A DNA stretch of 64,000 bases from Terriglobia bacterium (GTDB lineage Bacteria > Acidobacteriota > Terriglobia > JAIQFV01). The notes below the pieces were generated by a model that was not told where the DNA came from, searched no databases, and worked only from the letters and a program-made list of their open reading frames with translations. A program made the position numbers and the translations under genes. The stretch lies in assembly GCA_020073085.1 (NCBI GenBank), contig JAIQFV010000001.1, positions 372,001-436,000 of the forward strand, given 5' to 3'. This document shows positions 5,698 through 57,749 of this stretch, piece after piece; position 1 is the stretch's first letter; each line of letters opens with the position of its first letter.

Positions 5698-6870
5698 ATG
5701 AAACTTGCCAAACGAATGTCCCGCCTGGGAACCGAAACAGCCTTTGAGGTCCTGGTCCGAGCCAAGGGCCTGGAAGCCAAAGGCCACGATGTAGTGCATC
5801 TGGAAATTGGTGAACCGGACTTTGATACACCGCCCAATATTACGGATGCCGCAATTCAAGCCCTCAAGAACAAGTGGACTCACTACGGCCCGTCGGCCGG
5901 CCAGCCTGTGCTGCGTGAGGCGATTGCCGAGTACATTTCGAAGACCCGTAACCTGAAGGTCGATGCAAGCAACGTGGTCGTTGTGCCCGGCGGCAAACCG
6001 ATCATTTTCTTTCCCATTCTCGCGCTGGTCGACGAGGGGGATGAAGTGATTTATCCCAATCCCGGCTTTCCGATCTATGAATCGATGATTAATTTCATTG
6101 GCGGAAAGGCGGTCCCCATCGCGTTGCGTGAGGAACGTGATTTTGCGTTCGACGTGAACGAGTTGATTTCAAAAATCAACGATCGGACCAAGCTGATCAT
6201 CCTCAATTCACCGCAAAATCCCACGGGCGGTGTGCTCCCGAAGGAAGATTTGAAAGCCATTGCAGACGCCGTCCGCGACCGCGACTTGATGATTCTTTCC
6301 GACGAGATTTACTCCCGCATCCTGTTTGAGGGAAAGGCCGAATCGATCACTCAATTTCCGGGAATGCAGGAGAAGACGATCATCTTGGATGGCTTCTCAA
6401 AGACTTATGCCATGACCGGATGGCGGCTGGGATACGGAGTCATGCGCACCGATCTCGCCACTCAAATTGCGAAGCTGCAAACCAACTCCACCTCCTGCAC
6501 TGCTTCCTTCAGCCAGATCGCCGCGGTGGAAGCGCTCCGGGGAGACCAGTCGGGCGCGGAGGCGATGGTCGCGGAATTTCACCGGCGGCGTGATTTCATT
6601 GTCAAGCGACTGAACGAAATTGAAGGGCTCAGCTGCCGGATGCCGAAGGGGGCCTTCTATGTCTTCCCGAACATCAAGAAGACTGGAATGACTTCCAAGG
6701 AATTTGAAGAAAGGTTATTGAACGAAGCGTTCGTGGCCTGTCTGGCGGGAACCTCGTTCGGTGCCTTTGGCGAGGGCTACGTCCGCTTCTCCTATGCTAA
6801 CTCGCTGGAGAACCTGAAGAAGGCCATGGATCGGGTCGAACATTTTGTGACCAAGAAGGTTTTAGTGTAG
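5698..6870 (+). CDS. Class I PLP-dependent aminotransferase (aspartate-aminotransferase-like)
   Basis: The 390-residue protein is a fold-type I aminotransferase transferring amino groups from an amino acid to a 2-oxo acid. Visible landmarks are HLEIGEPDFDTPPNI near the N-terminus, HYGPSAGQPVLREAIA, the substrate loop SPQNPTGGVLP, DEIYSRI, and the PLP lysine in DGFSKTYAMTGWRLGYG near residue 235. The C-terminus has the conserved arginine region EGYVRFSYANS. The start ATG at 5698 follows GAGGATCCTCCGCC. Substrate is not decided by the sequence; members of this subgroup act on aspartate, aromatic or branched substrates. It stands alone between two gaps. Confidence 0.9.
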   Translation: MKLAKRMSRLGTETAFEVLVRAKGLEAKGHDVVHLEIGEPDFDTPPNITDAAIQALKNKWTHYGPSAGQPVLREAIAEYISKTRNLKVDASNVVVVPGGKPIIFFPILALVDEGDEVIYPNPGFPIYESMINFIGGKAVPIALREERDFAFDVNELISKINDRTKLIILNSPQNPTGGVLPKEDLKAIADAVRDRDLMILSDEIYSRILFEGKAESITQFPGMQEKTIILDGFSKTYAMTGWRLGYGVMRTDLATQIAKLQTNSTSCTASFSQIAAVEALRGDQSGAEAMVAEFHRRRDFIVKRLNEIEGLSCRMPKGAFYVFPNIKKTGMTSKEFEERLLNEAFVACLAGTSFGAFGEGYVRFSYANSLENLKKAMDRVEHFVTKKVLV

Positions 6871-6886
6871 CAATGAGAACCAGATA

Positions 6887-6906
6887 CACCCCGACACATT
6901 GGGGTG
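6887..6906 (+). terminator. Weak hairpin after the aminotransferase
   Basis: CACCCC/GGGGTG with an eight-base loop lies 16 bases after the stop codon. No T-tract follows, so this is a tentative terminator. Confidence 0.3.
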
Positions 6907-7041
6907 CGCTGTGATGGCCACGGTCCCCAGGCCCGCTATTTCTCTTCTTTGTCTTTCGCAAATTCACATTTGCGGATTAATTCCTCGCACTCCCCCCTCG
7001 ATTTCTAATCAGGAGGCAAACTACGGACACAGGAGCGCTTT

Positions 7042-9399
7042 ATGCCAATGTTGACTGTCGAACAATCACCCAGCCGGTTGAAGGAACTTTCCAAGGACTT
7101 TCCTGCCTGGGAAAAAACCAAAGACTGCATTGATACCTATCTTGACCTTATCATCAACTATCGCCAAAGTGGTCATCCCGGGGGTTCCCGGTCCAAAGTC
7201 CATGCCATGGTTACCACTCTGTTGAGTGGCTTCATGCGATGGGACATCCGCCATCCCGAGAAGAAATTTGGAGACCGCTTCATCCTGAGCGGCGGACACA
7301 CCGTGCCGCTCGTGTATTGCACGCTGACCGTACTCAATGAGGCGCTCCGCACCAAGTACGAGCGCACGCAAAATCCGGATTTTCTGGTTCCCCACCCGGA
7401 AAGGTTTCAACTCACCTGGGAGGACTTGCTGGGATTTCGCAGGAATAAAGGCCTGTCCGGACACGCCGAAATGGAAGGGAAAACCCTTTTCCTCAAGTTT
7501 AACACCGGACCCTCCGGGCACGGCATCACGGCTGCCGTGGGAGAAGCCTTCGCCCTGAAACGCGCCGGCGCCGAAGGCGTTAAAGTGGTGCTCTTTGAGG
7601 GGGAAGGGGGCCTGACACCCGGGGCGTCGCATGAGGCCAAGAATTCCGCCTGGGGACTGGGGCTCAACAATCTTTATTTTCTCATCGACTGGAATGATTT
7701 TGGAATCGATGAGCAGCCCATCAGCTCGGTCGTCTATGGTACTCCGGAAACGTGGTTCAATTCATATGGATGGCGCACGTTCGGCGCAGAGAATGGCGCA
7801 GACTGGAATCTCCTCACGGAAGCTATTCTTGAAGCCCAGGGAGACAACCCCCAGAAGGTGCCCACGGCCATTTGGATGAAGACCCGCAAGGGGCGCGGCT
7901 ATCTGATGTATGACAACAAATCGCATGGCACGCCGCATCCCTTGAACTCAGAAACTTTCTGGGAGACCAAGAAGGAATTTCAGAACAAATACAACGTCAA
8001 GTTTGAAGGGTTCGGCCAGCCCGCCCCCAAGGATCCTGCGGAACTGCGCCAGCAATTCAAGAACAACCTGAAGGTTGTTGCCGACGTGATCCGGAGCGAT
8101 GAATCTTTGGTCAACTACCTGGCGGATCGGCTCCTGGAGTTGGGCGAGAGTGTTCCGGAGACGATTTCGAGCTTCCGCCTCGGTGGCCGGAAAAATCCGT
8201 TGTTAGACCCTGTTCTCACCGATATCAAGAATTATCCCAAAGAACTGTTTGCCAAGGGCGGGGCGAAGGAGGCGAACCGGGCAGGGTTTGCCAAGTGGGG
8301 GTCGTGGATCAACTCCTATTGCCGGCAGAAGTATGATCGCCCTCTGTTCATTGCCTGCTCCGCCGACCTGGCCGAATCGACTAACATTGCCGGCTTCGCC
8401 AAGGACTTTGGCGAGATGAAGAACTACGGGCGTTACTCCCGCGACAAGAATCCCGAAGGCGTCCTGCTGCCCCAGGAGATTACTGAAAACGTCAACGCGG
8501 GAATCATGGTGGGGGCGGCGAGCGTTAATTTTGCCGAAGATCCCTTCCAGGAGTTCAACGGGTTCCTCGGGACTTGCTCAACCTATGGTTCGTTCGTGTA
8601 CCTTAAGTACGGCATGATGCGACTCTTCAGCCAGATGGCCCAGGATGGGCAATTGAAGATGGGCAAGGTGATTTGGGTTGCCGGACACTCGGGCCCCGAA
8701 ACCGCCGATGACTCCCGAACGCACTTCGGCATTTTTGAGCCGGGTGTTACCCAGCTCTTCCCGGAGGGCCACATCGTGGATGCTCACCCGTGGGAACACA
8801 ACGAGGTCGCCCCGGTATTGGGTGCCTGGATGAAGACCACTATCCCCATTATCGCCCTGCACCTGACGCGACCGCCCATTGAAGTTCCGGACCGGGAGGC
8901 CCTTGACCTTCCCTCCCACCTCGAAGCGGCCCGGGGGGCCTATGTGATCCGGGACTACCGCATCGGGGCTAAACCGATGGGGACTTTGATCGTGCAGGGG
9001 ACCTCGACCACCGCGAACCTCATCAAGCTTCTTCCCGTACTCGATGAGCAAAAGCTGAATGTCAAGATCGTCGCCGCCATCTCCCCCCAGTTATTCGCGC
9101 TTCAGGATTTTTCCTACCAGCGGGAAGTTCTATCAGAAGTCGACTATATTGATTCCACGGTCATCTCGAACCGGGCCTTGAGGCTGATGAGCGACTGGAT
9201 CAAAACGGATGTGGCTCGTGAATACGCCATGTGCTCGGACTGGGACAATCGCTGGCGCACTGGCGGAACCGTCGACGAAGTGCTGGAGGAGGCCCACCTG
9301 TCTCCGCAATGGCTGCTGACAGGAATTGAACGATTCGTCCGTGAGCGCGAACGACGGCTGCGCCACCTGAAGTCGATCCTCGACAACATCACCAGCTGA
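7042..9399 (+). CDS. Transketolase-family thiamine-diphosphate enzyme, paralogue 1
   Basis: At 785 residues this is over 100 residues longer than a standard transketolase. The N-terminal cofactor domain has INYRQSGHPGGSRSKVHAM, an RNKGLSGHAE segment, FNTGPSGHGI, EGEGGLTPG with a downstream IDWNDFGID (the position of the GDG...N diphosphate-binding motif), and MKTRKGRGY. The pyrimidine domain, from about residue 430, has CSADLAESTNIAGFAKDFG and a TCSTYGSFVYLKYG stretch. The C-terminal domain includes MGTLIVQGTSTTANLIKLL. It would transfer two-carbon units between sugar phosphates if it behaves as a transketolase, but the unusual GEG motif and length leave the substrate open. A close paralogue follows 5.3 kb downstream. 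Confidence 0.85.
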   Translation: MPMLTVEQSPSRLKELSKDFPAWEKTKDCIDTYLDLIINYRQSGHPGGSRSKVHAMVTTLLSGFMRWDIRHPEKKFGDRFILSGGHTVPLVYCTLTVLNEALRTKYERTQNPDFLVPHPERFQLTWEDLLGFRRNKGLSGHAEMEGKTLFLKFNTGPSGHGITAAVGEAFALKRAGAEGVKVVLFEGEGGLTPGASHEAKNSAWGLGLNNLYFLIDWNDFGIDEQPISSVVYGTPETWFNSYGWRTFGAENGADWNLLTEAILEAQGDNPQKVPTAIWMKTRKGRGYLMYDNKSHGTPHPLNSETFWETKKEFQNKYNVKFEGFGQPAPKDPAELRQQFKNNLKVVADVIRSDESLVNYLADRLLELGESVPETISSFRLGGRKNPLLDPVLTDIKNYPKELFAKGGAKEANRAGFAKWGSWINSYCRQKYDRPLFIACSADLAESTNIAGFAKDFGEMKNYGRYSRDKNPEGVLLPQEITENVNAGIMVGAASVNFAEDPFQEFNGFLGTCSTYGSFVYLKYGMMRLFSQMAQDGQLKMGKVIWVAGHSGPETADDSRTHFGIFEPGVTQLFPEGHIVDAHPWEHNEVAPVLGAWMKTTIPIIALHLTRPPIEVPDREALDLPSHLEAARGAYVIRDYRIGAKPMGTLIVQGTSTTANLIKLLPVLDEQKLNVKIVAAISPQLFALQDFSYQREVLSEVDYIDSTVISNRALRLMSDWIKTDVAREYAMCSDWDNRWRTGGTVDEVLEEAHLSPQWLLTGIERFVRERERRLRHLKSILDNITS

Positions 9400-9642
9400 T
9401 CCGGTACGACAGGGGTAACCGGGGCGGAGGGAAACGAATGTGAACGTTGACGGGGAAGGGGTCCTCTCGGTGTGCCGGAAAGTGAACCTGGCATCGTGGA
9501 GAGTGTCTCTCCGACCTGGCTTCTCGAGGAAATCGGGCGTTTTTTCGAAAGTCTGGACACTCCTCTGGGCTTGTTCGTTCGCGCCAGAATCTGACCGATT
9601 TTCGCTAAGTCGGAAGTTGCCTCTTTAATTTTCTATTTGTCT

Positions 9643-9672
9643 TTGTTAAGTCGGCGTGATGTGGTTTATAAT
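9643..9672 (+). promoter_or_regulatory. Sigma-70-type promoter for the small membrane protein gene
   Basis: TTGTTA (9643-9648), an 18-base spacer and a perfect TATAAT (9667-9672). Transcription would begin near 9680, leaving a leader of about 250 bases before the ATG at 9930. Confidence 0.6.
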
Positions 9673-9691
9673 GACCCTGTAACCAAGGCCA

Positions 9692-9711
9692 GGTCCCCGG
9701 GTTTGGGGACC
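9692..9711 (+). promoter_or_regulatory. Leader hairpin near the transcript start
   Basis: A perfect 7-bp stem GGTCCCC/GGGGACC with loop GGGTTT lies within the first 35 bases of the predicted transcript; the stem can extend outward imperfectly. A short T-run (CTTTTTGCGG) follows at about 9729. It could be an attenuator or a 5' stabilising hairpin; no known riboswitch is recognised. Confidence 0.35.
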
Positions 9712-9929
9712 GTGGCTGCGGACGAGGCTTTTTGCGGCTTTAAAGAAATAAATCAACACAGCACCTCACCTCTGAACCCTCTCTTTTTCAGGAAGTCAGT
9801 CATTTGACTTTCGATCAGCCGCCTCGTGGTTCGATCCTTCTAGAACCCAAGATCCTGAAAAGCCGTTTAGCGGATTCACCCATCGTAGCGAGAGCATTTC
9901 AAGGAGCATCTGAATTCCTGGAGGGCACC

Positions 9930-10493
9930 ATGAAAAAACTATTCCTGCTGTCGCTCATCCTCGCGGTGGTGCTGGCCGCAGGGTGGGAAGTGTTGTCCTA
10001 TTACGAATCGAATTACACGGGGCTGGTGCTCTACGGTCACCTCGTGGCCATGGACAAGCTAAGCGAACTGCAGACAACCACCCAGCGCCTGCTGACCCAG
10101 CCTGAAAACAAACTCGTGGTCATGCGGTTCGAGGGCAAGCCGAAGGCGCCTCGCGAGATTGACTTCTATACGGCGAAACTGATCGACAACCAGGGTGGCA
10201 TCCATAAGCTTCAAACCGCCGTCTGGAATGAATCGACTCCGACCGAAAATCTTCTCGTTTTTGCAGTGCCTGAGAAGACCGAAATCGCCTCATTTCAGTA
10301 TTCCGATCAGCCCGTCTTCCCGATCAAATATTTCGACAGGTTCGCGTGGTTGCGCTTCCGGAACTGGGTGGGCGGATCGGCCCTGACGATGATTGCGCTG
10401 GCCTGTGTGTTTGGGATCGTGTTGCACTTCAGGCCCGTGAAGAAGCCCGTGGAACACGTGGATCCGTTCGACTACATCAACAAGGCAGCGTAG
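9930..10493 (+). CDS. Small protein with two membrane segments, function unknown
   Basis: The ATG at 9930 is preceded by GGAGGGCACC and immediately encodes MKKLFLLSLILAVVLAAGW, a hydrophobic N-terminal anchor or signal segment. The longer in-frame opening from 9804 lacks a ribosome binding site. The 187-residue protein has a central region of about 110 residues, probably outside the membrane, and a second hydrophobic stretch near residues 140-160 (GGSALTMIALACVFGIVLHF), then a short charged tail. No family is recognised. It lies between the two transketolase paralogues and has its own promoter. Confidence 0.75.
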   Translation: MKKLFLLSLILAVVLAAGWEVLSYYESNYTGLVLYGHLVAMDKLSELQTTTQRLLTQPENKLVVMRFEGKPKAPREIDFYTAKLIDNQGGIHKLQTAVWNESTPTENLLVFAVPEKTEIASFQYSDQPVFPIKYFDRFAWLRFRNWVGGSALTMIALACVFGIVLHFRPVKKPVEHVDPFDYINKAA

Positions 10494-11170: not shown

Positions 11171-14100
11171 ATGTCTATCAAAACACTCTCTTTTGCGGCG
11201 AGTGTGACCGGGCTTTTGTTTTTGAGCGGGGCTTTGTGTGCCCAGGTTCCACATTTCGTCCTCAGTGGCACGACCGCTCAGGTTCGTGTGCACGGACAGA
11301 CGGAGGTCATGGGTGATTTGGCATTGACCTGCGATGTGTCCGGAACGTTTCCACCCTCCTCTTCGTTCACGGTGCTTTACGCCCCCGTGTTTGGCCTGGT
11401 GAATTCCACTGGTGGCACATTTACCGTTGCGAACGCCCAGGCCTCCAATGCGCGCCAGTCCCACGTCGAGAGCGAACCCGCCACCACGGGGATTGTGATT
11501 GGCACCGCCACGCTGAATGCGGTCACGCCCAAAAGCCTCACGATCACCCTATCCGGGACTGCGGCAGTGGGCGATGTCATCCGTGTCGCGGGGATCCGCG
11601 CCAACATCGGCGAGGCGAATTTGCCTCCCGGAACTCCGGTTTCCGGCACCCTCGTCGCCAATCCCCCTAATGCCTTCCAAATCGACAATGTATCCAGCTT
11701 CCCCGTGGCCTTCGTCCTGGATGAGATCCAGGTCAAAGTGACACCGGCAGCGCCTTTGGTGTTCTGCGATCCCAGCCACTGCCAGGTTGGAACTGTCACC
11801 GTCACGGAGCGTTCTCCATCGGCGTTAACCTCCTTACTGGAAGAGAATGACCTGCAACGTAAGCCCGGCGCCCCCGGAGCGAAGGCTGCCACCAACGGCA
11901 CCCAAGTGAAGATTGTCCTTGCCAGTATATCGCCGGGAGTTACGGTGTCGGTCCCCCCTTCAGTCACCAACGCGACGCTGACTCTTTCCTTAAACGGGGC
12001 GTCCCCCTCTTTCACAAACACGTCTCTGACCACCCCGACGGATACTACTTTCACGTACAATGTGATCGCCGATGACCCGACCACGGTGGAAAATATCAGT
12101 ATCCCGGTGACCTTCTGTGCCACGGCGGTCCCCTTTCCCGCGGTATCTTCGACTATGACGGCTCAAGTCCTGATGGGCCCCAATGCGGGCTCCGGGTTTA
12201 CGTCCGAGATTCCGTCAGGCAGTATCTTGAGTTTTGTCCCGAACCCGCTGAGTGTTCCTCCCGGACCGATTGAAGGCCTCTCGGGCCCACCCTGTCACAC
12301 CAACCTCAAGGTGCAAAATGTTTTGGTGACTCCGGACAGCGGCCCTACTGCAACGCATATTTCAGTAGCGTTCACCATCGCCAACCAGGGCAATGGAACT
12401 GCCAGCCCCACGACGGTCTCTCTCCGCCTGAACACCTCGACCACCAGCGTAAGCGCAAGCGATTTCCTTCTCGCTACAGTTCAGAGCCCGGTTATAGGAC
12501 CTGGCGCCACCTTTGATGGCTCCCAGACGACAACCATTCCGTGTCCCCTGAATCCGGGCGGCTATGTGGTCTGGGTGGTCGTTCCAGGGGACCAGAGCAG
12601 AAATGAATTCGATACCACGGGATTCGGCCACTTTGCGGTTCTCAGTTCCTCGTGCGTTAGCGCAGTTTCTCCCGCCAGTCAATCTTTCACCGCCAGTGGC
12701 GGAACGGGCAGTGTCATCGTCCAGGCACCAAACTCCTGCAATTGGACGGCAAACAGCAATTCCCTCTCGCTCTCGGTTGCCCCCGGGAGCAGCGGCAGTG
12801 GAAATGGCACAGTGGACTTTTCTGTGGCGCCCAACTCCAATACCAACCCCCACACCGGGACAATAACCGTCGCGGGATTTCCTTTCATCGTGGTCCAAGC
12901 GGGGAACAACCCGGGCAGCTTCAGTACCACGCTGACCGTGGGGGGCGGCCTATCGAAATCGTCGCTCAACCAGGGCCCGCTGTCAGTCTTTTACGGCCAA
13001 CTCGTCGGCACAACCTCCTCTCAACCGGTCGCGCTCGCGAACTTCGGATTTTCACAGAACGGAGCGCTGATCTCTGAGGTCGGGGTTCCGGCCTCTTCCT
13101 TGCTCTCGCGCACCAGGCTCTTTGTGGACCTCGGGAGCGGGTTGGATACGGGTGTTGCGCTTGTCAATCCCAACGACACCTCCATTTCGGTCCATTTGGA
13201 GGCGAAGGACGCTACCGGTCTGAGTATTTCCCAAGGGACCCTGAACCTCGGCCCACGCGGCCATACAGCCCTCTTCGTCAGCCAGATGGGTTTGAATCTG
13301 CCGACCAATTTTCTGGGGACTTTGACCCTTTCGAGCTGCAACCTGTTTGGTGTAACCAACCTGCGGAACGCCACCAATGGGCACGGGGAGCTCATCTCGA
13401 CTGCATTGCCCCTGGCCGATTTGAATAGTCTTCCTCCCGGAGCAAACTTGATCTTCCCTCAAATCGTGGACGGAGGCGGTTTACCCACACAAATCCTCTT
13501 GATGAACCCCTCTGCCACCGCATCCAGCTCGGGAACGATCTCCTTGTTCGGGGATGACGGGGCGTCGTTGTCACTGGACTTCGGTTCCGGTCCCCAAAGC
13601 TCCCTGAATTATTCGATGCCGCCCGATGGGATGGTGAAATTTACGACAACGGGCCTGGGGGCGCTGCGCGTTGGTTATGCCGTGGTCACGCCCTCATCTG
13701 GCGCCCTGCCGATCGGAAGCGGGATCTTTACCAGTAAGAGTGGGGCCAGCGTCTCTTCTCAGGCCGGGGTGCCGAATTCTCCCCAGACCACAGCAGCCCG
13801 GCTGTTTGTGGAAGTTGCCGCCTCGCCATTGAGCCGCAACACGGGTCTCGCGATTATTAATCGAAATGCCGCGACGGCGACAGTGAATCTCAATCTGGTT
13901 GGTCTCGATGGCACGCCTTTCTCCGGTAGTTTGACCATTCCTCCCAACGGACATGTGGCGAGATTCATCACCGAACTGATTCCTTCGCTGCCCCCGAACT
14001 TTCAGGGGGTATTGACACTGAGTTCCAACGTCCCCGTCTCTCCCCTGACGTTAAGGCTGACGAAGAACCAGCGCGCCGAAGATATTTTCTCAACCCTGCC

Positions 14101-35292: not shown

Positions 35293-37521
35293 ATGAAACT
35301 TGTTGGAATGATTTTACTAGTCCTCGCCCTTCCGGGCGGAGTGATGTTGGCCCAGCTCGCTGCAAACTCGAAGGCCCAGCCTATGGCGGCCAAGAACATG
35401 GAAACCAGGGCGGCAGGCTCATCGCTTGCCTACCCGACAGCCCAGCGCGATAACGTGGTGGACAATCTTTTTGGTGTCAAGGTACCGGCACCGTATCGAT
35501 GGATGGAAGACTTGAACAGTCCGGCCGTAAAAAGCTGGGTCGACGACGAAAACAAGCTGACCTTCTCCTATCTGAACGGGATTCCGGCGAGAAGCTGGAT
35601 CCGCGAGCACCTGACCAAGCTGTGGAACTATGAAAAGGTGGGGGTGCCGCGCCGGGAAGGGGGCAAGCTGTTTTTAAGCAAGAACACCGGGCTTCAAAAC
35701 CAGTCCGTGGTGTATGTGCAAGATTCACTGGGCGCCCAGCCTCGTCTCCTCATCGATCCCAACAACCTCTCCCCCGACGGCTCGGTGGCCCTGGCCGACT
35801 ACTCGCCCTCGCCTGACGCGCGCTACCTCGCGTACGGCCTCTCGCAGGGAGGCTCCGACTGGATTGTCTTCCACATCAAGGAAATACCCTCGGGCAAGGA
35901 TTTGTCCGACCAGGTCCAGTGGGTCAAATTTTCTGGAGTCTCTTGGACCAAAGATGGGAAGGGTTTTTTCTACTCGCGTTACCCGGCGCCTCCTGCCGGC
36001 CAGGCAATCAGTGACCAGGTTAAGAACCAGGCCCTCTACTATCACCAGGTGGGGACGGACCAGGCGAAGGACCGACTCATCTACGCGCGGCCGGATCTGC
36101 CCAGTTGGATCATTGAGGGCTCTGTGTCTGAAGACGGTCATTACCTGGCGATCGCACTGGTCAACGGGACGGCCCCGACCAACGAATTGTTCCTTGTCGA
36201 TCTCGGTGATCCCGCCCATCCGAATGTGGCCGCTCCCGTGAAGCCGCTTTACACCCGGAATGATGCCGAATACGCCCCCATCGGAAATATAGGGGATACC
36301 CTCTTTCTTCAAACCACCCTCGCCGCACCCAAAAGGAAGATTGTCGCGGTCAAGCTGACCGACCCCGCCCCTGAACACTGGCGTACCGTCATCCCGGAAG
36401 GCGAGAGCGTCATTCAAAGCTCCCTGATGGCCGGCGGCCAGGTGGTCGTCCAGTATCTTGTGGACGCAAAGAGCGAGGTTAAGATTTTCTCGACCAACGG
36501 CGCTCCAGGCGGGACACTTCCCTTGCCAGGCATCGGTTCGGTAGAGGGATTAAGCGCCCGCAATGACACCCCGGAAATATTTTACGGCTTCACCTCTTAC
36601 CTCTATCCGACCACAATTTATTTCTTCGACATGCATGCGGGCCGGAGCGCCGTGTTTGCCAAACCCCAGGTCGCCTTCGATCCCTCTCCGTATGAGACCC
36701 GGCAAGTCTTTTACCAGTCCAAGGACGGGACTCGGATTCCCATGTTCATTACTGCCCGGAAGGACTTGAAGCAGGATGGACAAAACCCGACCGTCCTTTA
36801 CAGTTACGGCGGGTTCGACATCAGTATCACCCCGGGCTTCTCGCCCATGCTGCCGATCTGGCTCGAATTAGGGGGGGTGTACGCGGTGGCAAATCTGCGG
36901 GGCGGGGGTGAATATGGGGAAGTATGGCATGAGGCGGGAATGCTCAGTCACAAACAGAATGTGTTTGATGATTTCATTTCCGCGGCTGAATACTTAATTC
37001 ACGAAAAATACACATCGCCTTCCCGGCTGGCGATTGAGGGCTATTCCAACGGCGGCTTGTTGGTGGGTGCCACCATCACGCAGCGACCCGACCTGTTTGG
37101 GGCAGCTTATGCCGGGGCGGGAGTGCTGGACATGTTGCGCTATCACAAGTTTTCAGGAGGCGACTTATGGGCGCCGGAGTATGGCTCGCCCGAAGATCCC
37201 CAGGCCTTCCAATGGCTGCGGGCTTATTCGCCGCTCCAGAATTTGAAACAGGGCGCCTGCTATCCGCCCACCATCATCACGACGGCCGATCACGATGACC
37301 GCGTTGTGCCCAGCCACTCCTATAAATTCACCGCCGCGCTGCAGCGCGACCAAGGATGCGGAAAACCGGTGATCATCCGTGTCGAAACTCAGACGAGCCA
37401 TGGTTACATGCCCACCGACAAGCGGATCGCCCAGACCGCCGATGTGTGGGCCTTCCTGGCACACAACCTCGGTGTAAAAGAGCCATCTGTCGATAAGGGG
37501 TCTGGCGGGCCGAAGCCATGA
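35293..37521 (+). CDS. Prolyl oligopeptidase (S9A family), exported
   Basis: The 742-residue serine peptidase cleaves short peptides after proline. A signal segment is at residues 1-20 (VGMILLVLALPGGVMLAQ). The N-terminal propeller begins VVDNLFGVKVPAPYRWMEDL, the standard family motif. The catalytic domain carries the serine in EGYSNGGLLVGA, the aspartate in ADHDDRVVPSHSYKF and the histidine in SHGYMPTDK. RGGGEYGEVWHEAG precedes the serine. The ATG follows AAGGGAGAGAAGC. Being exported it may degrade extracytoplasmic peptides for uptake. It follows the kinase gene by 147 bases with its own promoter. Confidence 0.93.
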   Translation: MKLVGMILLVLALPGGVMLAQLAANSKAQPMAAKNMETRAAGSSLAYPTAQRDNVVDNLFGVKVPAPYRWMEDLNSPAVKSWVDDENKLTFSYLNGIPARSWIREHLTKLWNYEKVGVPRREGGKLFLSKNTGLQNQSVVYVQDSLGAQPRLLIDPNNLSPDGSVALADYSPSPDARYLAYGLSQGGSDWIVFHIKEIPSGKDLSDQVQWVKFSGVSWTKDGKGFFYSRYPAPPAGQAISDQVKNQALYYHQVGTDQAKDRLIYARPDLPSWIIEGSVSEDGHYLAIALVNGTAPTNELFLVDLGDPAHPNVAAPVKPLYTRNDAEYAPIGNIGDTLFLQTTLAAPKRKIVAVKLTDPAPEHWRTVIPEGESVIQSSLMAGGQVVVQYLVDAKSEVKIFSTNGAPGGTLPLPGIGSVEGLSARNDTPEIFYGFTSYLYPTTIYFFDMHAGRSAVFAKPQVAFDPSPYETRQVFYQSKDGTRIPMFITARKDLKQDGQNPTVLYSYGGFDISITPGFSPMLPIWLELGGVYAVANLRGGGEYGEVWHEAGMLSHKQNVFDDFISAAEYLIHEKYTSPSRLAIEGYSNGGLLVGATITQRPDLFGAAYAGAGVLDMLRYHKFSGGDLWAPEYGSPEDPQAFQWLRAYSPLQNLKQGACYPPTIITTADHDDRVVPSHSYKFTAALQRDQGCGKPVIIRVETQTSHGYMPTDKRIAQTADVWAFLAHNLGVKEPSVDKGSGGPKP

Positions 37522-37557
37522 GCGACCGCATTACCAGCCGGTCTTAGATAAATCCAC

Positions 37558-37900
37558 CTGTCGTGGTTTTGGAGGCGGACCCGAGGGGCTGGGGGCTCAC
37601 ACTCCTGGTAGTTTTTGTCCGACCGGCAGTTCCGATATAAAGCAGGACAAGCGCGACATTCGCCATGATGCGCGCGACCTCAAGCACGACCGCCATGATG
37701 TCTACAACGACAAGAAAGATATCCGGTCAGACCGCAAGGACCTCAAGCAGGCAGACAGCAAGGCGGATATCAAAGCCGACCGAAAGGACCTCTATCGCGA
37801 TCGCAAAGACCTGCGTCAGGACACCAAGGATGTTCACCGGGATGCACGCGACCTGCACCGTGATCGCAAAGATCTCCGTCAAGATCAGCACGGACACTGA
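37558..37900 (+). pseudogene. Charged seven-residue-repeat protein, N-terminus apparently frameshifted
   Basis: From about 37628 to the TGA at 37898-37900 one frame encodes about 90 residues, almost all Arg, Lys, Asp, His and a single aliphatic per unit. It is built from 11 tandem heptads of form [R/K/A][K/R]D[L/I/V]xxD, such as KRDIRHD, ARDLKHD, RKDLYRD, RKDLRQD, with a two-residue insertion before KADIKAD. No good start codon opens this frame. A hydrophobic stretch LTLLVVFVRPA in another frame just upstream (about 37592-37625) looks like the missing signal peptide, suggesting a frameshift near 37625-37635. The product would be a highly charged helix. Similar Asp/Arg repeat proteins are known to me in Acidobacteriota without assigned function. 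Confidence 0.6.
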
Positions 37901-38432: not shown

Positions 38433-41400
38433 ATGCGCACCAATTTGTCACATGCCATGCCTGCATGGCTTAGGGGCAGCATCTGTTGTCTACTGATCAC
38501 TCTGGGCGTTACATCTGGCCTGTACGCCCAATCGTCCATCATTACGGGGACCATTCAGGGAACGGTGACGGACCCGTCAGGGGCCGTTGTGCCGGGAACG
38601 AGCGTTGAAGTCAAAAACCTGGACACCAACCTGACCCGCACGATTGTGACCGACAGTGATGGCCGCTTTGTCTTCCTTCAGTTGCCGTCAGGTCGATATT
38701 CTCTGACAGTTTCGAAACAGGGATTTGCCACCCTCGTGCAGGAAAGTGTCAGTCTGACGGTAGGTCAGACAATCACGCTCGACCTGGCCATGAAGGTTTC
38801 CCAACGGCAGGAGCGCATCACCGTCACGGCAACGCCCACGATTGAAACCACGGAGACGGTTTCTGCCAGCACCTTGAATGAGCTCTCGGTGGAGAAGACC
38901 CCGGTTCTCGGGAGAAAGTTTGAAGATCTTCTGACTTTGACGCCGGGGGTCAGCATCGTTCAGGGCCCGGATGGCGATGAGATCAACTTCAACGGTCAAC
39001 GCGGGATCTTCAATAATATCAGCCTTGATGGAACCGACTACAACAATGGTTTTTTCGGAGAACAGTTGGGAGGCCAGCGTGCCGCGATTGATATCACTCT
39101 CGAGGCCGTCAAGGAATTTCAGGTGGTCGCAGCGGGCGCCAACGCGGAGTTTGGAAGGACTGCGGGTGGAGTCGTCAATGTCATCACCAAGTCCGGGGGC
39201 AACCAGTTCCATGGAAGCCTGTTCCACTTTCAACGTCTCGAAGCCTTGACCGCTGACACCTCCGATGGCAAAGGGCTGGACGGTTTCAAGCGCGAACAAT
39301 TCGGGGGCACCATCGGCGGGCCCATCAAGAAGGACAAGGTGTTTTTCTTTGGGGCTTTCGAACAAATTTTCGAAGACTTCACACGAGCGAATCTGAGCCA
39401 ACCGATCGGCTCCACGCCGTGCCCAGTGGCCGCACCGATCGTCGGGACCAATGATTCCCAGATCAACAGCAACCCCGACTGCCAGCGGCTCGCCCTTATC
39501 AATTTTTTCCAGACCCGATTCAACCAGGCCGAAGGGAATCCCATCCCGCATCCCACTCGCAACTCCTCTGCTCTGGGAAAGCTTGACTGGAACATTAACC
39601 CATCGAACCAGTTCTCCGCCTCGTACACCTTTGATTATTCGAAGAATACGAACCAGACCTTCGACGTTCCCACGTATGGAAACTCCGCCAACGGCATCGA
39701 AGGACCTTCCAAGATACAAACCGTCAACGCGAGCCTGTTTACGACGCTTTCTCAGACCAAGCTGAATGAATTCCATTTCGGCTATTCACGCGAAAATCGC
39801 CCGCGGAGTGCAGTGCCCTCCGCCGTACCGGACACGGCCATGGGGTTCGCGACAACCTTCCGATTTGGACAGCCGTTCTTCCTGGAGCCGAACGTTGATG
39901 AGCTGTTTTATCGGACCGACCTGAGGGATAACCTGTCCATCGTCTCCGGGAAGCACAATATCAAGTTTGGCGGCGAGTGGCTTCACAGCCGGAATGTCCA
40001 GGTCTTCCGTGGATTCTTTACCGGTCGCTACATTTTTGACAGCGTGACCGGCTTCCTCCATTACGCTTCGCCGGCATCGCTGGGACCGGGTTTCGGACCG
40101 ACGGCCGTGGAATGTTCCAACGGCGCATTTGTGGGACCCACCGGAACCTGCCCGGCCGGCTCCACCCCCACAGGTGGACCACTCCTTCTCTACTTGCAAA
40201 ACGCCTCCCCGAGCGGACCCACCACGGATGCGGCGGGAAAGGCCGATCAGACCAACCAGAATTATGCCCTGTTCATCCAGGACAAATGGCAGATCCGGCC
40301 CGGCTTTACCTTCAATTACGGCCTGCGCTGGGAAGCGCAAATTCTCGCCCAGCCAGTCATCCCCGGGTCACAGACCGCTTATGGAGTCAATCTGAGCAAT
40401 CCGAGTTTCCCCGGGGACGGCACTCTGCCCAACCAAAAGAAGATGTTCCAACCGCGCGTCGGGATCGCATGGGATCTCTTCAACAACAGTAAATCCGTGC
40501 TGAGGGCTAGCTGGGGGATTTACAACGGAAATCAGAATATGTTGACCCAGGTGGGACCGATCACCACCAACGGTGTTCAGCTTCAGGGAATTACCGCCGG
40601 GACTGGATTTAATACGGCGGGTGGGAATCCCCCCACTTATCCAGGCGTCGTGGTCGCCCCGGTGATCCCCCCTGGAACCTTCCCCTCTACGCCCGGCGTG
40701 ACCGTCTTCAGCAAGGACTACGCAAACCCTAGGATTTACACCGCCAACTTCGCGTTTGAGCAGGAGTTGATGGGAGGCATGGCAGCGTATGTTGATTTTA
40801 CGTGGTCAAAGGGTGTTCACCTCACCCGCTTCACCAATCCCAACGTCGGGCCAGTCTCGATCATCCCTCAAAATGCTGACACGGTGACATACTCGGGTCC
40901 AACACCCTTCCCGAATCTGGGTGCCATCACCGACACGGTCAGCTCGGCAAAATCGCTCTACCGAGGCATCACATTTGGTCTCCGCAAGCGATTCAGTCAG
41001 CACTACCAGATGGATGCGAACTACACTTATTCGAGAGACTACGACGACGATTCCAACGAACGCGACCCATTCACCTTCCGTTATGCCGATCTGCACAACC
41101 TGGCGGCGGAGTATGGCCCTTCGGACCGCGAAGAACGCAACAAGTTTAATTTTTACATTTACGGCGAATTACCCAAAGGTTTTCAAGGAAGCATTCGGAT
41201 GCAGGCCCATTCCGCACAACCGATCACAGACAACCCAGCGGGGACTGGGACTGGGCCGGCTTGCAGTCTCAACAATTCGGTCACCCGGTTCGTTAACGGG
41301 GTCGACTGCGGCCGCAATCACTTGCGCAAGGACAACGCGTTCTTCACTCTCGACTGGCGGATGGAGCGCCCTTTCAAGTTTAAGGAACGGTATGCGGTGA

Positions 41401-41549
41401 CACCGATCATTGAGATGTTTAACACCTTCAACAACGTCAACAATGTCAACCCGCTCATTACACCCGGTCTGTTCAACTTCGACGGGTTCTTGCGACAGGG
41501 CGTGGGAGATCCGCTGCAAGTTCAGCTTGCAGTCAAGTTCACGTTCTGA
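38433..41549 (+). CDS. TonB-dependent outer-membrane receptor (Oar-like)
   Basis: The 1038-residue protein has a signal peptide (ICCLLITLGVTSGLYAQ), a carboxypeptidase-regulatory-like domain (GTIQGTVTDPSGAVVPGTSVEV; GRYSLTVSKQGFATL), a plug with FEDLLTLTPGVSIVQG, FNGQRGIFNNISLDGTDYNN and GRTAGGVVNVITKSGGNQFHG, then GGPIKKDKVFFFGAFEQ and a large barrel ending LQVQLAVKFTF with a terminal Phe typical of outer-membrane proteins. It is more complete than the receptor at 27.4-30 kb and belongs to the expanded Oar/TonB set of Acidobacteriota. Substrate unknown. A strong terminator follows. Confidence 0.93.
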   Translation: MRTNLSHAMPAWLRGSICCLLITLGVTSGLYAQSSIITGTIQGTVTDPSGAVVPGTSVEVKNLDTNLTRTIVTDSDGRFVFLQLPSGRYSLTVSKQGFATLVQESVSLTVGQTITLDLAMKVSQRQERITVTATPTIETTETVSASTLNELSVEKTPVLGRKFEDLLTLTPGVSIVQGPDGDEINFNGQRGIFNNISLDGTDYNNGFFGEQLGGQRAAIDITLEAVKEFQVVAAGANAEFGRTAGGVVNVITKSGGNQFHGSLFHFQRLEALTADTSDGKGLDGFKREQFGGTIGGPIKKDKVFFFGAFEQIFEDFTRANLSQPIGSTPCPVAAPIVGTNDSQINSNPDCQRLALINFFQTRFNQAEGNPIPHPTRNSSALGKLDWNINPSNQFSASYTFDYSKNTNQTFDVPTYGNSANGIEGPSKIQTVNASLFTTLSQTKLNEFHFGYSRENRPRSAVPSAVPDTAMGFATTFRFGQPFFLEPNVDELFYRTDLRDNLSIVSGKHNIKFGGEWLHSRNVQVFRGFFTGRYIFDSVTGFLHYASPASLGPGFGPTAVECSNGAFVGPTGTCPAGSTPTGGPLLLYLQNASPSGPTTDAAGKADQTNQNYALFIQDKWQIRPGFTFNYGLRWEAQILAQPVIPGSQTAYGVNLSNPSFPGDGTLPNQKKMFQPRVGIAWDLFNNSKSVLRASWGIYNGNQNMLTQVGPITTNGVQLQGITAGTGFNTAGGNPPTYPGVVVAPVIPPGTFPSTPGVTVFSKDYANPRIYTANFAFEQELMGGMAAYVDFTWSKGVHLTRFTNPNVGPVSIIPQNADTVTYSGPTPFPNLGAITDTVSSAKSLYRGITFGLRKRFSQHYQMDANYTYSRDYDDDSNERDPFTFRYADLHNLAAEYGPSDREERNKFNFYIYGELPKGFQGSIRMQAHSAQPITDNPAGTGTGPACSLNNSVTRFVNGVDCGRNHLRKDNAFFTLDWRMERPFKFKERYAVTPIIEMFNTFNNVNNVNPLITPGLFNFDGFLRQGVGDPLQVQLAVKFTF

Positions 41550-41649: not shown

Positions 41650-42089
41650 GCCAATTCTTTCAGGCAGTAAGCACGCCCCAAGAGGGATGGGGCATGCAAG
41701 TGGCTCGGGCTGGATTCGATTGATCTCAAAAGATTTCTTTTGGTCATTCGAAAATGGAACCGGTTCCAAGCAGAATCTCACCTCGGACCTCCACGAAGCC
41801 CTCGTGCCGAAGTCGACCGCCAGGTCAAGCTCACCTCTCCCTGTACCTTCAGTTCAGATGTCGCCCCTGCCGGTTTCCCCAAATCACAAGCAGCATATTG
41901 ACAGCCGATTTGAATTGGCAGTAGCATTCAAGCGGGACAAACACCCATTCTTCATAATAACTACTTCCTCCAGGCAGGAGCAGCTCACTGACGTGGTTCT
42001 GGCGAAATCCGGCGGGGGCAGGATTTCACGCGCAAAGAAACAAATACGTCGCTCTCAATCTCTACCAACCCGAGCCCGGGTGATTCGAT
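41650..42089. other. Leader region of the caspase operon
   Basis: No gene is supported; an open stretch at 41648-42097 lacks a family signature and starts inside the terminator T-tract. A possible promoter is at 41898-41927. Confidence 0.5.
41898..41927 (+). promoter_or_regulatory. Promoter candidate of the caspase operon
   Basis: A perfect TTGACA (41898-41903), 18-base spacer and TAGCAT (41922-41927), about 160 bases before the start codon. The -10 is weak. Confidence 0.4.
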
Positions 42090-44492
42090 ATGGCTGAGAA
42101 GAAAAGTGCGCTCATCATCGCCAACTTTCAATACGAAGACCAAGTCTTGCAGCAGCTGATCGCGCCGGCCCAGGACGCTGAAGCCCTGGCTGCCGTGCTG
42201 GGAAACCCTGACATCGGCGGATTTGAGGTTCAGACCCTATTAAACGAACCTTCCCACGTGGTCAGCGAACGGATCGAGGCCTTTTATGCAGATCGGAAGC
42301 GGGATGACCTGCTGCTGCTCTATTTTTCCGGTCACGGGGTCAAGGACGAAGATGGGCAGCTCTACTTTGCCACCCGCAACACCCAGCACAAGCTGCTTCG
42401 TTCCACGGCAGTGTGGGCGAATTTTGTGAATGACGTCATGTTCCGAAGCCGCTCCCGACGGCAAGTCCTGTTGCTGGACTGTTGCTACAGTGGGGCCTTC
42501 GCTCGCGGGATGGTAGCCAAGGGGAGCAAGGACGTCGGGACGAGAGACCACTTCGAGGGGCGCGGCCGGGTTGTTCTAACCGCCTCGGACGCAATGCAAT
42601 ATTCCTTTGAAGGCGGTGAGGTCAAGGGAGAAGGCGTCCGTTCCATATTTACTCAGTCCCTGGTGCGAGGCCTGGAGACCGGTGAGGCCGATCTGGACGG
42701 CGACGGCTTGGTCACGCTCGATGATCTATACGATTACATCCACGATCGCGTTACCGACGAAATGCCCCAGCAGAGTCCGGGAAAGTGGGCGTTCGACGTC
42801 CAGGGTGAAATCATCATCGCCCGGAACCCCCGCCCTCCCATCGTGAAGGTGGGCAACCTGCCGCCGGAGCTGAGAGAAGCGATCGAGAGTCCACTAGTTG
42901 GAGTGCGAGTCGGTGCGGTCCAGGAATTGGAACGCCTGCTCCGGGGCAAGAACAAAGCCCTGGTCATGGCGGCGAAAGAAGCTTTGGTGTCGCTGAAAGA
43001 GGACGACAGCCGCCAGGTTTCAACCGCCGCCGAAAAGTGCCTGGCGGCCTATTTCAAAGTCGAACAACCCGAACCGGCGACTGTAGAACATTCCCGTCCT
43101 CCGGAACCTGCCGAGGTCCACAAGACGGATCGGGCGGTCCTTCCCTCCACTGAAACGGCCGCTCAACAACGGTTGCTGGAGGCGGCGCTGCCAAACAAGA
43201 TTTCCGTTGGAAGATCCACTCAACTCCTTGCCCTCATCCGACGCACGGATTCAGAGGGTCTCCGTGCAGTGCTCGCCCAAGAGAATATTCAGTCATTGAC
43301 CGCCGAGGACGTGACTTCGCGGACGTTTCAACTGGAATTTCCGACGGATCAAAATGGAGGGATACAGTCCGCCGAAATCTTTCTCAGGGTTGACGCTCCG
43401 GATTTTGAGCCGAAGTCACAAACCAAGAAACTTCTTGTTCCTCCCCGGGGCGACTCTGCAACCTGCACTTTTCTACTCACTCCCCAAAAACCCGGTGATC
43501 TCCTGGTAAATTTAGAGGTGTTCAAAGGAGATCTTCATGTCGCCTCGCGCGTCATCACCACGTTGGCAGAATTTTCAACCCGCGACCTGATCGGCGTCAC
43601 TACGACTTTAGTTTCGCTCCCCCTTGTAGTTGTGGTCCAGCCCATTCAAGCGGAAGGCGCTCGAATCGACCCCAGAGAAGTGTCGGGAACCCTTCCTCTG
43701 TCGGGGGGACCGGCCAAGCCCGCAGCCATCCCGCGGGCGCCGGCAGAGCCAGTGCCACAAACAACACGGATGACGCCAGTCCCCCAAGTGAAGGAGAAGA
43801 AACCCTCTCAATCTATTCCGCCGCCGAATCCTGCGCCGGTGATAAGACAACCCGTTCTTGTTGAACCGCCGAGCAGGCCGCGGGTTGAGCCCGTGGCGGC
43901 ACCCGGAAGAACTTCTGTTTCCACGCCCGTGGCGCGGGAGGTTCCGCGCGGTCCCAGCCTCAAAATCTGGGCGTCCGCAGCAACGGTCGTTATCGCCCTG
44001 GGCATCGGTGTCGGATACTTGAACCACCGATCGCCGCCCATCCGCGAGAGCCCCGCACCCATCGTTACTCCTGCGCCCACTGATTCAAAGGGGCACGCCG
44101 GTGAAGCGGGTCCGCTTCAACCTTCAAAACCTCCGGTGGCCACAACGACACTGCCGGAGGTGTCCTCTGCACGCTCCCAAGGAGACGCGTTATATGAACG
44201 GGGTATGTACGGGAAGGCCATCCATGAGTACCAAAAAGGCTTAAGCGTGGATCCAGGGAATGTCGAACTCCGAAACAAGGTCGAGCAGGCTCGGCTGGCC
44301 CAAGCCAAACTGGAAGAAGAGGTGTCCTCTGCCGGTTCCCAGGGAGACGCCTTGTATGAAAGAGGGGCATACGAGAGGGCCATCAAAGAATACCAAAGAG
44401 CCCTGAGCGTGGACCCGTCGAACGAAGTGCTCCAAAAGAAGATCGATCGAGCCCGGCGCGCACAAGCCGCCGAAAAGAAATTCGGACGGTGA
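42090..44492 (+). CDS. Caspase-family protease with HEAT-like, membrane and TPR regions
   Basis: The 800-residue protein begins with a C14 caspase-fold protease (residues 5-245): SALIIANFQYED, the catalytic His82 in LLYFSGHGVKD, and the Cys131-Cys132 pair in LLLDCCYSGAFARGM, of which Cys132 fits the catalytic position. LTASDAMQYSFEG follows. Residues about 270-320 look like a HEAT-type repeat (VGVRVGAVQELERLLRG). A beta-rich region follows at about 365-500, then a Pro-rich linker, a membrane helix near 625-645 (WASAATVVIALGIGVGYL) and two TPR units (SQGDALYERGMYGKAIHEYQ and a second copy). The protease part resembles caspases found in predicted bacterial conflict and signalling proteins. It is followed after 33 bases by a TPR gene. 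Confidence 0.85.
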   Translation: MAEKKSALIIANFQYEDQVLQQLIAPAQDAEALAAVLGNPDIGGFEVQTLLNEPSHVVSERIEAFYADRKRDDLLLLYFSGHGVKDEDGQLYFATRNTQHKLLRSTAVWANFVNDVMFRSRSRRQVLLLDCCYSGAFARGMVAKGSKDVGTRDHFEGRGRVVLTASDAMQYSFEGGEVKGEGVRSIFTQSLVRGLETGEADLDGDGLVTLDDLYDYIHDRVTDEMPQQSPGKWAFDVQGEIIIARNPRPPIVKVGNLPPELREAIESPLVGVRVGAVQELERLLRGKNKALVMAAKEALVSLKEDDSRQVSTAAEKCLAAYFKVEQPEPATVEHSRPPEPAEVHKTDRAVLPSTETAAQQRLLEAALPNKISVGRSTQLLALIRRTDSEGLRAVLAQENIQSLTAEDVTSRTFQLEFPTDQNGGIQSAEIFLRVDAPDFEPKSQTKKLLVPPRGDSATCTFLLTPQKPGDLLVNLEVFKGDLHVASRVITTLAEFSTRDLIGVTTTLVSLPLVVVVQPIQAEGARIDPREVSGTLPLSGGPAKPAAIPRAPAEPVPQTTRMTPVPQVKEKKPSQSIPPPNPAPVIRQPVLVEPPSRPRVEPVAAPGRTSVSTPVAREVPRGPSLKIWASAATVVIALGIGVGYLNHRSPPIRESPAPIVTPAPTDSKGHAGEAGPLQPSKPPVATTTLPEVSSARSQGDALYERGMYGKAIHEYQKGLSVDPGNVELRNKVEQARLAQAKLEEEVSSAGSQGDALYERGAYERAIKEYQRALSVDPSNEVLQKKIDRARRAQAAEKKFGR

Positions 44493-44525
44493 TTTCCTCT
44501 CGCGTCCCGGATTGAGGTTTCTATT

Positions 44526-45872
44526 ATGGGAAAAGTGGTCGGCGTCCACGGCCGGATGGGCAACGCATATCGAGCTCCTATGGCATTGGCACTCCTTACC
44601 GCCACAATATTCCTTGGGGCTGTGCTCCCCCTGATGGCCGCCGCGAAGGGCGCTTCACAGAATTCATTCAGTAAAGCCGACATCCTTGGATTGCTGCAAG
44701 GCGAGGTCTCACCCAAACGGATCGCGGCATTGGTGCGCGAACGGGGCATTTCGTTTCAACTCACCCAGGAAGCAGAGAACGAGTTGCGCCAGGCGGGTGC
44801 TGACTCTGACCTTTTGGAAACTCTCCGGGAATTGGCTGCCCGGCTCCCAAAACCAAAACCCTTACCCCCCAAGCCGCCCCCACAATCACCGGAGACCTTA
44901 ATGCGGCAGCACACGGCGCAGGGCGCGGCTTTTGTTGACGCGAAAAAATGGGACGAAGCGATCAGCGAATTTCGTGAAGTGATCAAACTCGGTCCGGCAG
45001 ATTTCGGTGGGCATTACAACCTCGGCTATGCACTCCTCCAAAAAGGGGACCTGGACGGAGCGGTCACGGAACTTCGCGAGGCGATTCGGCTGAAACCGGT
45101 TGACGCCTCCGCGCATTTCAACCTCGGCCTGGCGCTGGAATTCAAGCACGACTTGGATGGAGCGATCGCGGAATATCGCGAGGCGGTTCGACTCCAACCG
45201 GAGGATTTTGGCTGGCACACCCTGCTTGGCTACCGGCTGCTTGGTCGAAAGGACTGGGGCGGGGCCATTACCGAATTTCGTGAAGCCGTCCGGCGGAGTC
45301 CGGGATACGCCCTGGCCCATTACGGGCTGGGCCAGGCACTCGATGGTCAACAGAATCCGGACCAGGCGATTGCCGAATACCGCAAGGCGGCCATCCTGAA
45401 ACCTGAAGACGCCGCAATTCATTACAGTCTGGGGAATGCCCTCTACAACAAATTCGACTGGGATGGAGCCCTTACCGAATTCCAGGAGGTCGTTCGTCTG
45501 AATCCTGCCGACCCCGTCGCCCTCACCAAGCTGGGAAACACCCTGTTTGAGAAGCGGGACTGGGATGGCGCTATTCTCGTATATCGCAAGGCGTTGGGAT
45601 TGAAACCCGACAACGCCACCGCGCGCAACAACCTTGGCGTCGCCCTTTACAACAAACACGACCTGGAGGGTGCCATCACTGAATTGCGAGAGGCGATCCG
45701 AATCCGGTCAACGGATGCCACTGCCCACAACAGCCTTTGCCACGCCCTCCTCGAGAAAAAGGATAGACCGGCCGCCCTGCAGGAATGTCGCATCGCCTGT
45801 GACCTACAACCCAATAGTAACCTCTGCACCGAATACCAGAAGCTGACCAGCAGGAAAACCCTCAAGCCTTAG
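44526..45872 (+). CDS. Exported or anchored TPR-repeat protein
   Basis: The 448-residue protein has a hydrophobic N-terminal segment (residues about 19-38: ALALLTATIFLGAVLPLMAA). A helical region of about 60 residues (FSKADILGLLQGEVSPKRIAALVRERG split over the start) and a Pro/Lys linker (PKPKPLPPKPPP) lead into about nine consecutive 34-residue tetratricopeptide repeats, e.g. HYNLGYALLQKGDLDGAV and HFNLGLALEFKHDLDGAI. It likely serves as an interaction scaffold. Position 33 bases after the caspase gene, which itself ends in TPRs, suggests they work together. The start follows GAGGTTTCTATT. Confidence 0.85.
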   Translation: MGKVVGVHGRMGNAYRAPMALALLTATIFLGAVLPLMAAAKGASQNSFSKADILGLLQGEVSPKRIAALVRERGISFQLTQEAENELRQAGADSDLLETLRELAARLPKPKPLPPKPPPQSPETLMRQHTAQGAAFVDAKKWDEAISEFREVIKLGPADFGGHYNLGYALLQKGDLDGAVTELREAIRLKPVDASAHFNLGLALEFKHDLDGAIAEYREAVRLQPEDFGWHTLLGYRLLGRKDWGGAITEFREAVRRSPGYALAHYGLGQALDGQQNPDQAIAEYRKAAILKPEDAAIHYSLGNALYNKFDWDGALTEFQEVVRLNPADPVALTKLGNTLFEKRDWDGAILVYRKALGLKPDNATARNNLGVALYNKHDLEGAITELREAIRIRSTDATAHNSLCHALLEKKDRPAALQECRIACDLQPNSNLCTEYQKLTSRKTLKP

Positions 45873-45932
45873 GAGCGTTTCGTTCGGTAACGGCTTGCCA
45901 AGCCACATGCGTGCTATCGTGAGGGCGCCCCC

Positions 45933-57543: not shown

Positions 57544-57549
57544 GGTGAA

Positions 57550-57749
57550 GTTATCAGTTCTCAGTTGTCAGTTCTCAGTTGGAAGAACAGGTGCCAGCTC
57601 TCAGTTGTCAGTTATCAGTTTTCAGTGATTGTGAAACCTGCTCTGTTTGTGCTCGCGAATGGTGGATGCATAAAATCTTTGATTCAATCGACAAAGGTTG
57701 TGGTTGAACCACGGTATTAACCGAGAACTGACAACTGAGAACCGGCAAC
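57550..57749. repeat. Heptanucleotide tandem repeats in inverted arrangement
   Basis: At 57550-57579 the unit GTTNTCA repeats without gaps (GTTATCA, GTTCTCA, GTTGTCA, GTTCTCA), again at 57604-57626 (GTTGTCA, GTTATCA, GTTTTCA). At 57722-57749 the complementary form appears (CGAGAAC, TGACAAC, TGAGAAC, CGGCAAC). The two arrays point toward each other across about 95 bases and fill the gap between meaB and the acyl-CoA dehydrogenase gene. Confidence 0.85.

Follow-up and report, generated by a model that had tools for sequence, protein, structure and literature searches.

A probable 5'-truncated remnant of a secreted Asp/Arg heptad gene in a Terriglobia genome and its uncatalogued family

The heptad-encoding locus described here is most probably the 5'-truncated, probably non-functional tail of a gene that lost its start codon and export signal to a deletion of about 4.4 kb; we give this reading a probability of roughly 0.88. 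The locus lies in a 64 kb stretch of DNA (the window, G000:C1:372001-436000) from a draft genome of 5.79 Mb, and an intact counterpart is present in G001, a genome of the same genus. Its relatives form what we call the secreted Asp/Arg heptad family, which is defined in the present analysis and has no database name. The features discussed are collected in Table 1.

Table 1. Features of the heptad locus, its surroundings, and comparable loci (window coordinates unless a locus is named).
Feature	Position	Strand	Basis
Prolyl oligopeptidase (S9) gene, intact, left of the junction	35293..37521	+	G001 alignment
Stop-to-stop open frame with the heptads, without ATG, GTG, or TTG	37478..37900	+	frame reading
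Oligopeptidase 3' flank, non-coding; holds the hydrophobic stretch (in another frame) of the original prediction	37522..37618		G001 alignment
Putative deletion junction: homology of the oligopeptidase flank to G001 ends and that of the heptad gene begins; few shared bases	37619..37630		G001 alignment of draft assembly
Eleven Asp/Arg heptads (5 + 6), probably what is left of a secreted heptad protein's mature part; stop at 37898-37900	37634..37897	+	unit pattern, G001 orthologue
12 bases of G001 missing, at the break between heptad blocks	37748..37753	+	G001 alignment
TonB-dependent receptor-like gene with carboxypeptidase regulatory-like domain, colinear, right of the heptads	38433..41549	+	G001 alignment
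Oligopeptidase-heptad loci	L063 (G119:C91:129000-148000) 7261-10048; L066 (G126:C29:48000-67000) 5963-9522; window 35293-37900

The remnant contains exactly eleven D[LIV]xxD units at a seven-residue step, five before a short break (LKQADSKAD) and six after it. Codon-shuffled versions gave at most five units in any frame (3000 shuffles), and the self-identity of the heptads at lag 7, 0.37, was reached in 0 of 100,000 residue shuffles. The charged heptads of the original prediction are thus real and far beyond chance. No second cluster of such units was found elsewhere in the 64 kb window. At the DNA level the array was not detected by TRF, which indicates that the periodicity is kept in the protein. 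The prediction was also right that the frame lacks a start codon, as none of its 140 codons is ATG, GTG, or TTG.

The sole close relative of the window heptads is in G001. The G001 gene is whole: an ATG and an export signal, MNPSKIIRRILTGGALVGLLSIGAWAQ, are followed by PTGSSDIKQDRRDIRHD, and the frame runs on to the same C-terminus as in the window copy. The shared parts of the two proteins are 92% identical, and the DNA 3' of the heptads is colinear with G001, at about 82%, through the TonB-dependent receptor gene. The heptad unit, the C-terminus, and the downstream gene are alike in the two genomes, but the window copy, unlike the G001 gene, has no upstream region, start codon, or N-terminal export signal. 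Within the array, the window copy has 21 residues more of heptads than G001, and its break is four residues shorter and without the Gly of the G001 break; the extra residues and the loss of 12 bases look like ordinary slippage between repeat units.

On the other side, the window oligopeptidase gene and the next 100 bases match G001 at 87%. This left homology stops near 37624-37630, and the right homology starts at 37619. In G001, the oligopeptidase block and the heptad gene are separated by 4.4 kb of DNA that holds VapB, a PIN-domain VapC, an 866-residue PDZ-GAF-SpoIIE phosphatase, and the 5' part of the heptad locus (upstream region, start codon, and export signal). Save for repeats and distant paralogues, this segment was not found elsewhere in the G000 assembly, which is 98.7% complete, and a search of the whole G000 genome found no second copy of the heptad gene.

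From these alignments, we infer that the change is a deletion in the lineage of the window. In the simplest history, one such event would have taken out VapBC and the phosphatase gene together with what lay 5' of the heptads in their own gene (upstream region, start, and export signal), and the remnant would either not be translated or yield a product stranded in the cytoplasm. An insertion in G001 was rejected because it would have to create a fitting, family-type export signal in front of the heptads. The polarity of the deletion is based on two genomes, G000 and G001. The next genome of the family, G002, has an orthologue of the oligopeptidase, without the phosphatase and receptor genes beside it, and the heptad gene was not found in G002; this arrangement does not polarize the deletion. 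In the distant genome G119, just 128 bases separate an oligopeptidase gene from the intact heptad gene that follows it, and some of the 4.4 kb may accordingly have been added in G001.

The original prediction saw an apparent frameshift before the heptads, which in this version separates an intact export signal from them, and it pointed to a hydrophobic run, VVVLEADPRGWGLTLLVVFVRPAVPI, in another frame just upstream. This run lies in the frame starting at 37548, inside the oligopeptidase 3' flank. The flank has a homologue in G001, with a 2-base indel that changes the frame, but there it sits 4.4 kb from the heptad gene, and the run is dissimilar to the true export signal. The frameshift is rejected on the G001 alignment; the start is missing owing to the deletion junction, and the hydrophobic stretch is flanking DNA of the oligopeptidase gene. 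The further proposal that the gene was once secreted stands on other evidence, namely the export signals of the G001 orthologue and of nearly all full-length relatives read. It is also very unlikely that the junction is an assembly artefact and that the strain has an intact gene. The genome is a draft in 68 contigs, but the junction is inside a contig of 604 kb, the few bases shared there offer no long repeat to mislead an assembler, and the missing 4.4 kb is nowhere else in the assembly.

Across 72 aligned codons, G000 and G001 differ by 22 synonymous and 7 non-synonymous changes, the amino acid changes being mostly R to K, and the remnant is free of stops and frameshifts. The pN/pS of the heptads is about 0.08, compared with 0.08 for the receptor gene and 0.14 for the oligopeptidase gene (crude counts, uncorrected for saturation). 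Over the shared codons, this shows that the heptad gene encoded a constrained protein. The low ratio implies either that purifying selection acted during most of the time since the G000/G001 split and the deletion is young, or that the product is still made, and together with the intact frame it would also fit the latter. Translation might begin at a rare start codon, or depend on the oligopeptidase gene through coupling or frameshifting; the product would then be a heptad protein in the cytoplasm or a peptidase extended at its C-terminus. The open frame, which overlaps the end of the oligopeptidase gene (37478-37521), and the low pN/pS are in keeping with this idea. However, the usual start codons are absent, inspection by eye showed no ribosome site at a suitable distance from the few CTG and ATA codons, the overlap is a novelty of G000 (unrelated DNA follows the oligopeptidase gene in G001), and a recent deletion would give a low pN/pS too. 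We thus judge continued expression improbable, and a non-functional, truncated tail remains our preferred reading.

The intact family is, by its profile matches, widespread in Acidobacteriota, found in one Sulfuricella, and uncatalogued. A profile built from eight sequences matched in 43 of 297 genomes of the phylum and in 46 of 200 genomes of the class, the weakest matches being of low complexity. The window heptads match it with an E value of 4.6e-33, a figure to be read knowing that the profile itself includes the window sequence. A scan of named genomes with the relative from G041 returned a sole relative, the family member of Sulfuricella sp. T08. Nothing exceeded the curated cut-offs of Pfam and NCBIfam for the window heptads or for sets of eight and nine members, and a sequence search of the PDB gave nothing over cut-off. 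Heptad matches were not found in plasmid and phage records, and no literature on the motif or such a family was found among open-access papers. The second, weak match in G001 was discarded as a 7-base minisatellite rather than a relative: when translated, this tandem array (L118, 760-1062) mimics a heptad protein in several frames. A short tandem array with a 7-base unit is also present in the window at 57549-57626.

Intact members combine a Sec-type export signal with the Asp/Arg heptads. A crude export-signal rule is satisfied by 41 of the 42 relatives examined, and the remaining one has a signal by eye. One of those that pass, L028, has an apparent frameshift inside the signal. The heptad gene of G246 (L119, G246:C1:73300-74600, 538-978) is apparently frameshifted within its export signal; it is perhaps a second broken copy, or else a sequencing error. 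In many members, the two heptad blocks are parted by a break that carries Gly or Asn, an arrangement that would be in keeping with a hairpin.

The family unit is Asp-Ile/Leu-Arg-x-Asp-Arg/Lys-Arg/Lys. Asp outnumbers Glu 1070 to 128 overall. Since D or E was required at two positions of the pattern by which units were gathered, what this count tells us is the preference for Asp. Residue pairs at i+3/i+4 are like-charged in 2365 cases and opposite in 700 across the family, compared with about 1533 opposite pairs in shuffles, and the window heptads alone have 49 like and 7 opposite pairs. One Ile, Leu, or Val per heptad, at a fixed position, forms an aliphatic seam. On a helix, this layout would make an Asp ridge and an Arg/Lys ridge flanking the single seam. 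From single sequences, AlphaFold modeled the window heptads as a two-helix hairpin (pLDDT 88, pTM 0.72) and the Sulfuricella relative as one helix of 103 residues (pLDDT 92, pTM 0.42). The predicted helix is consistent between the two models, which disagree on the hairpin. A Foldseek comparison of the window model with the PDB returned generic helical hairpins only (best E value 0.26).

The family resembles several known systems without belonging to them. With SAH/CSAH sequences it shares very high charge, seven-residue spacing, and a predicted helix. In SAHs, Glu is matched at i+3/i+4 by oppositely charged Lys/Arg, and a hydrophobic seam is lacking (PMC5347031), whereas the heptad family has like charges at these spacings, an aliphatic seam, and Asp replacing Glu. 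Membership among SAHs was rejected because opposite i+3/i+4 pairs are not enriched and the seam is present; the single charged helix (SAH) suggested by the original prediction does not agree with a charge spacing that is the reverse of the SAH one. Canonical coiled coils likewise have a heptad repeat with an aliphatic residue at one core position, but here the second core position is Asp and the first is the only aliphatic one, which bears out the view that the repeat is unlike a normal coiled coil. The acid-shock protein Asr (NF033636) is also small, exported, repetitive, and highly charged. One of nine members scored 21 bits against its model, versus a cut-off of 50, the eight others had no match, and NF033636 was not listed among the matches of the window heptads. 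The resemblance to Asr can be read as a functional analogy only.

As a clue to function, the surroundings of the heptad genes yielded no partner conserved across the phylum; neighbors are shared inside a single family of genomes and no further. In three lineages (G000/G001, G119, and G126), a prolyl oligopeptidase gene is found no more than 5 kb from a heptad gene, although each of these genomes has few such peptidase genes. This proximity exceeds chance by our estimate, but the comparison was drawn once the window had been seen. A repeat about 270 bases long, interspersed in the genome (L010, about 13674-13966; 855-1147 of the missing-segment query) has dozens of copies in G001 and one good copy plus fragments in G000, and it could be a miniature mobile element that spread recently. 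Further to the right, window positions 41892-45929, which encode a caspase-domain and TPR protein (42090-44492), are missing at the matching place in G001, indicating that the neighborhood gains and loses genes.

The intact protein would be exported to the periplasm or the cell surface, where it would form either a long helix or a helical hairpin. Such helices would pair through contacts between the acid ridge of one and the base ridge of another, or would hold charged polymers of the envelope, and we propose a role as an envelope-packing or protective protein. That the intact family acts through salt bridges in this way, by self-pairing or by pairing with charged envelope polymers, is a tentative suggestion that we would put at clearly less than even odds. 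We hold with similar reserve, as possible rather than probable, that the relatives constitute an undescribed, widespread class of exported two-faced helices assembling by inter-helix salt bridges in the envelope.

The locus in the window is a case of ordinary decay, a clear beheading by deletion that is of use mainly for annotation. The family, which is real and structurally odd, is the interesting part: it is without a curated model and deserves one, and its charge layout would allow a clean test of what in a sequence favors a lone charged helix over an assembly held by salt bridges.
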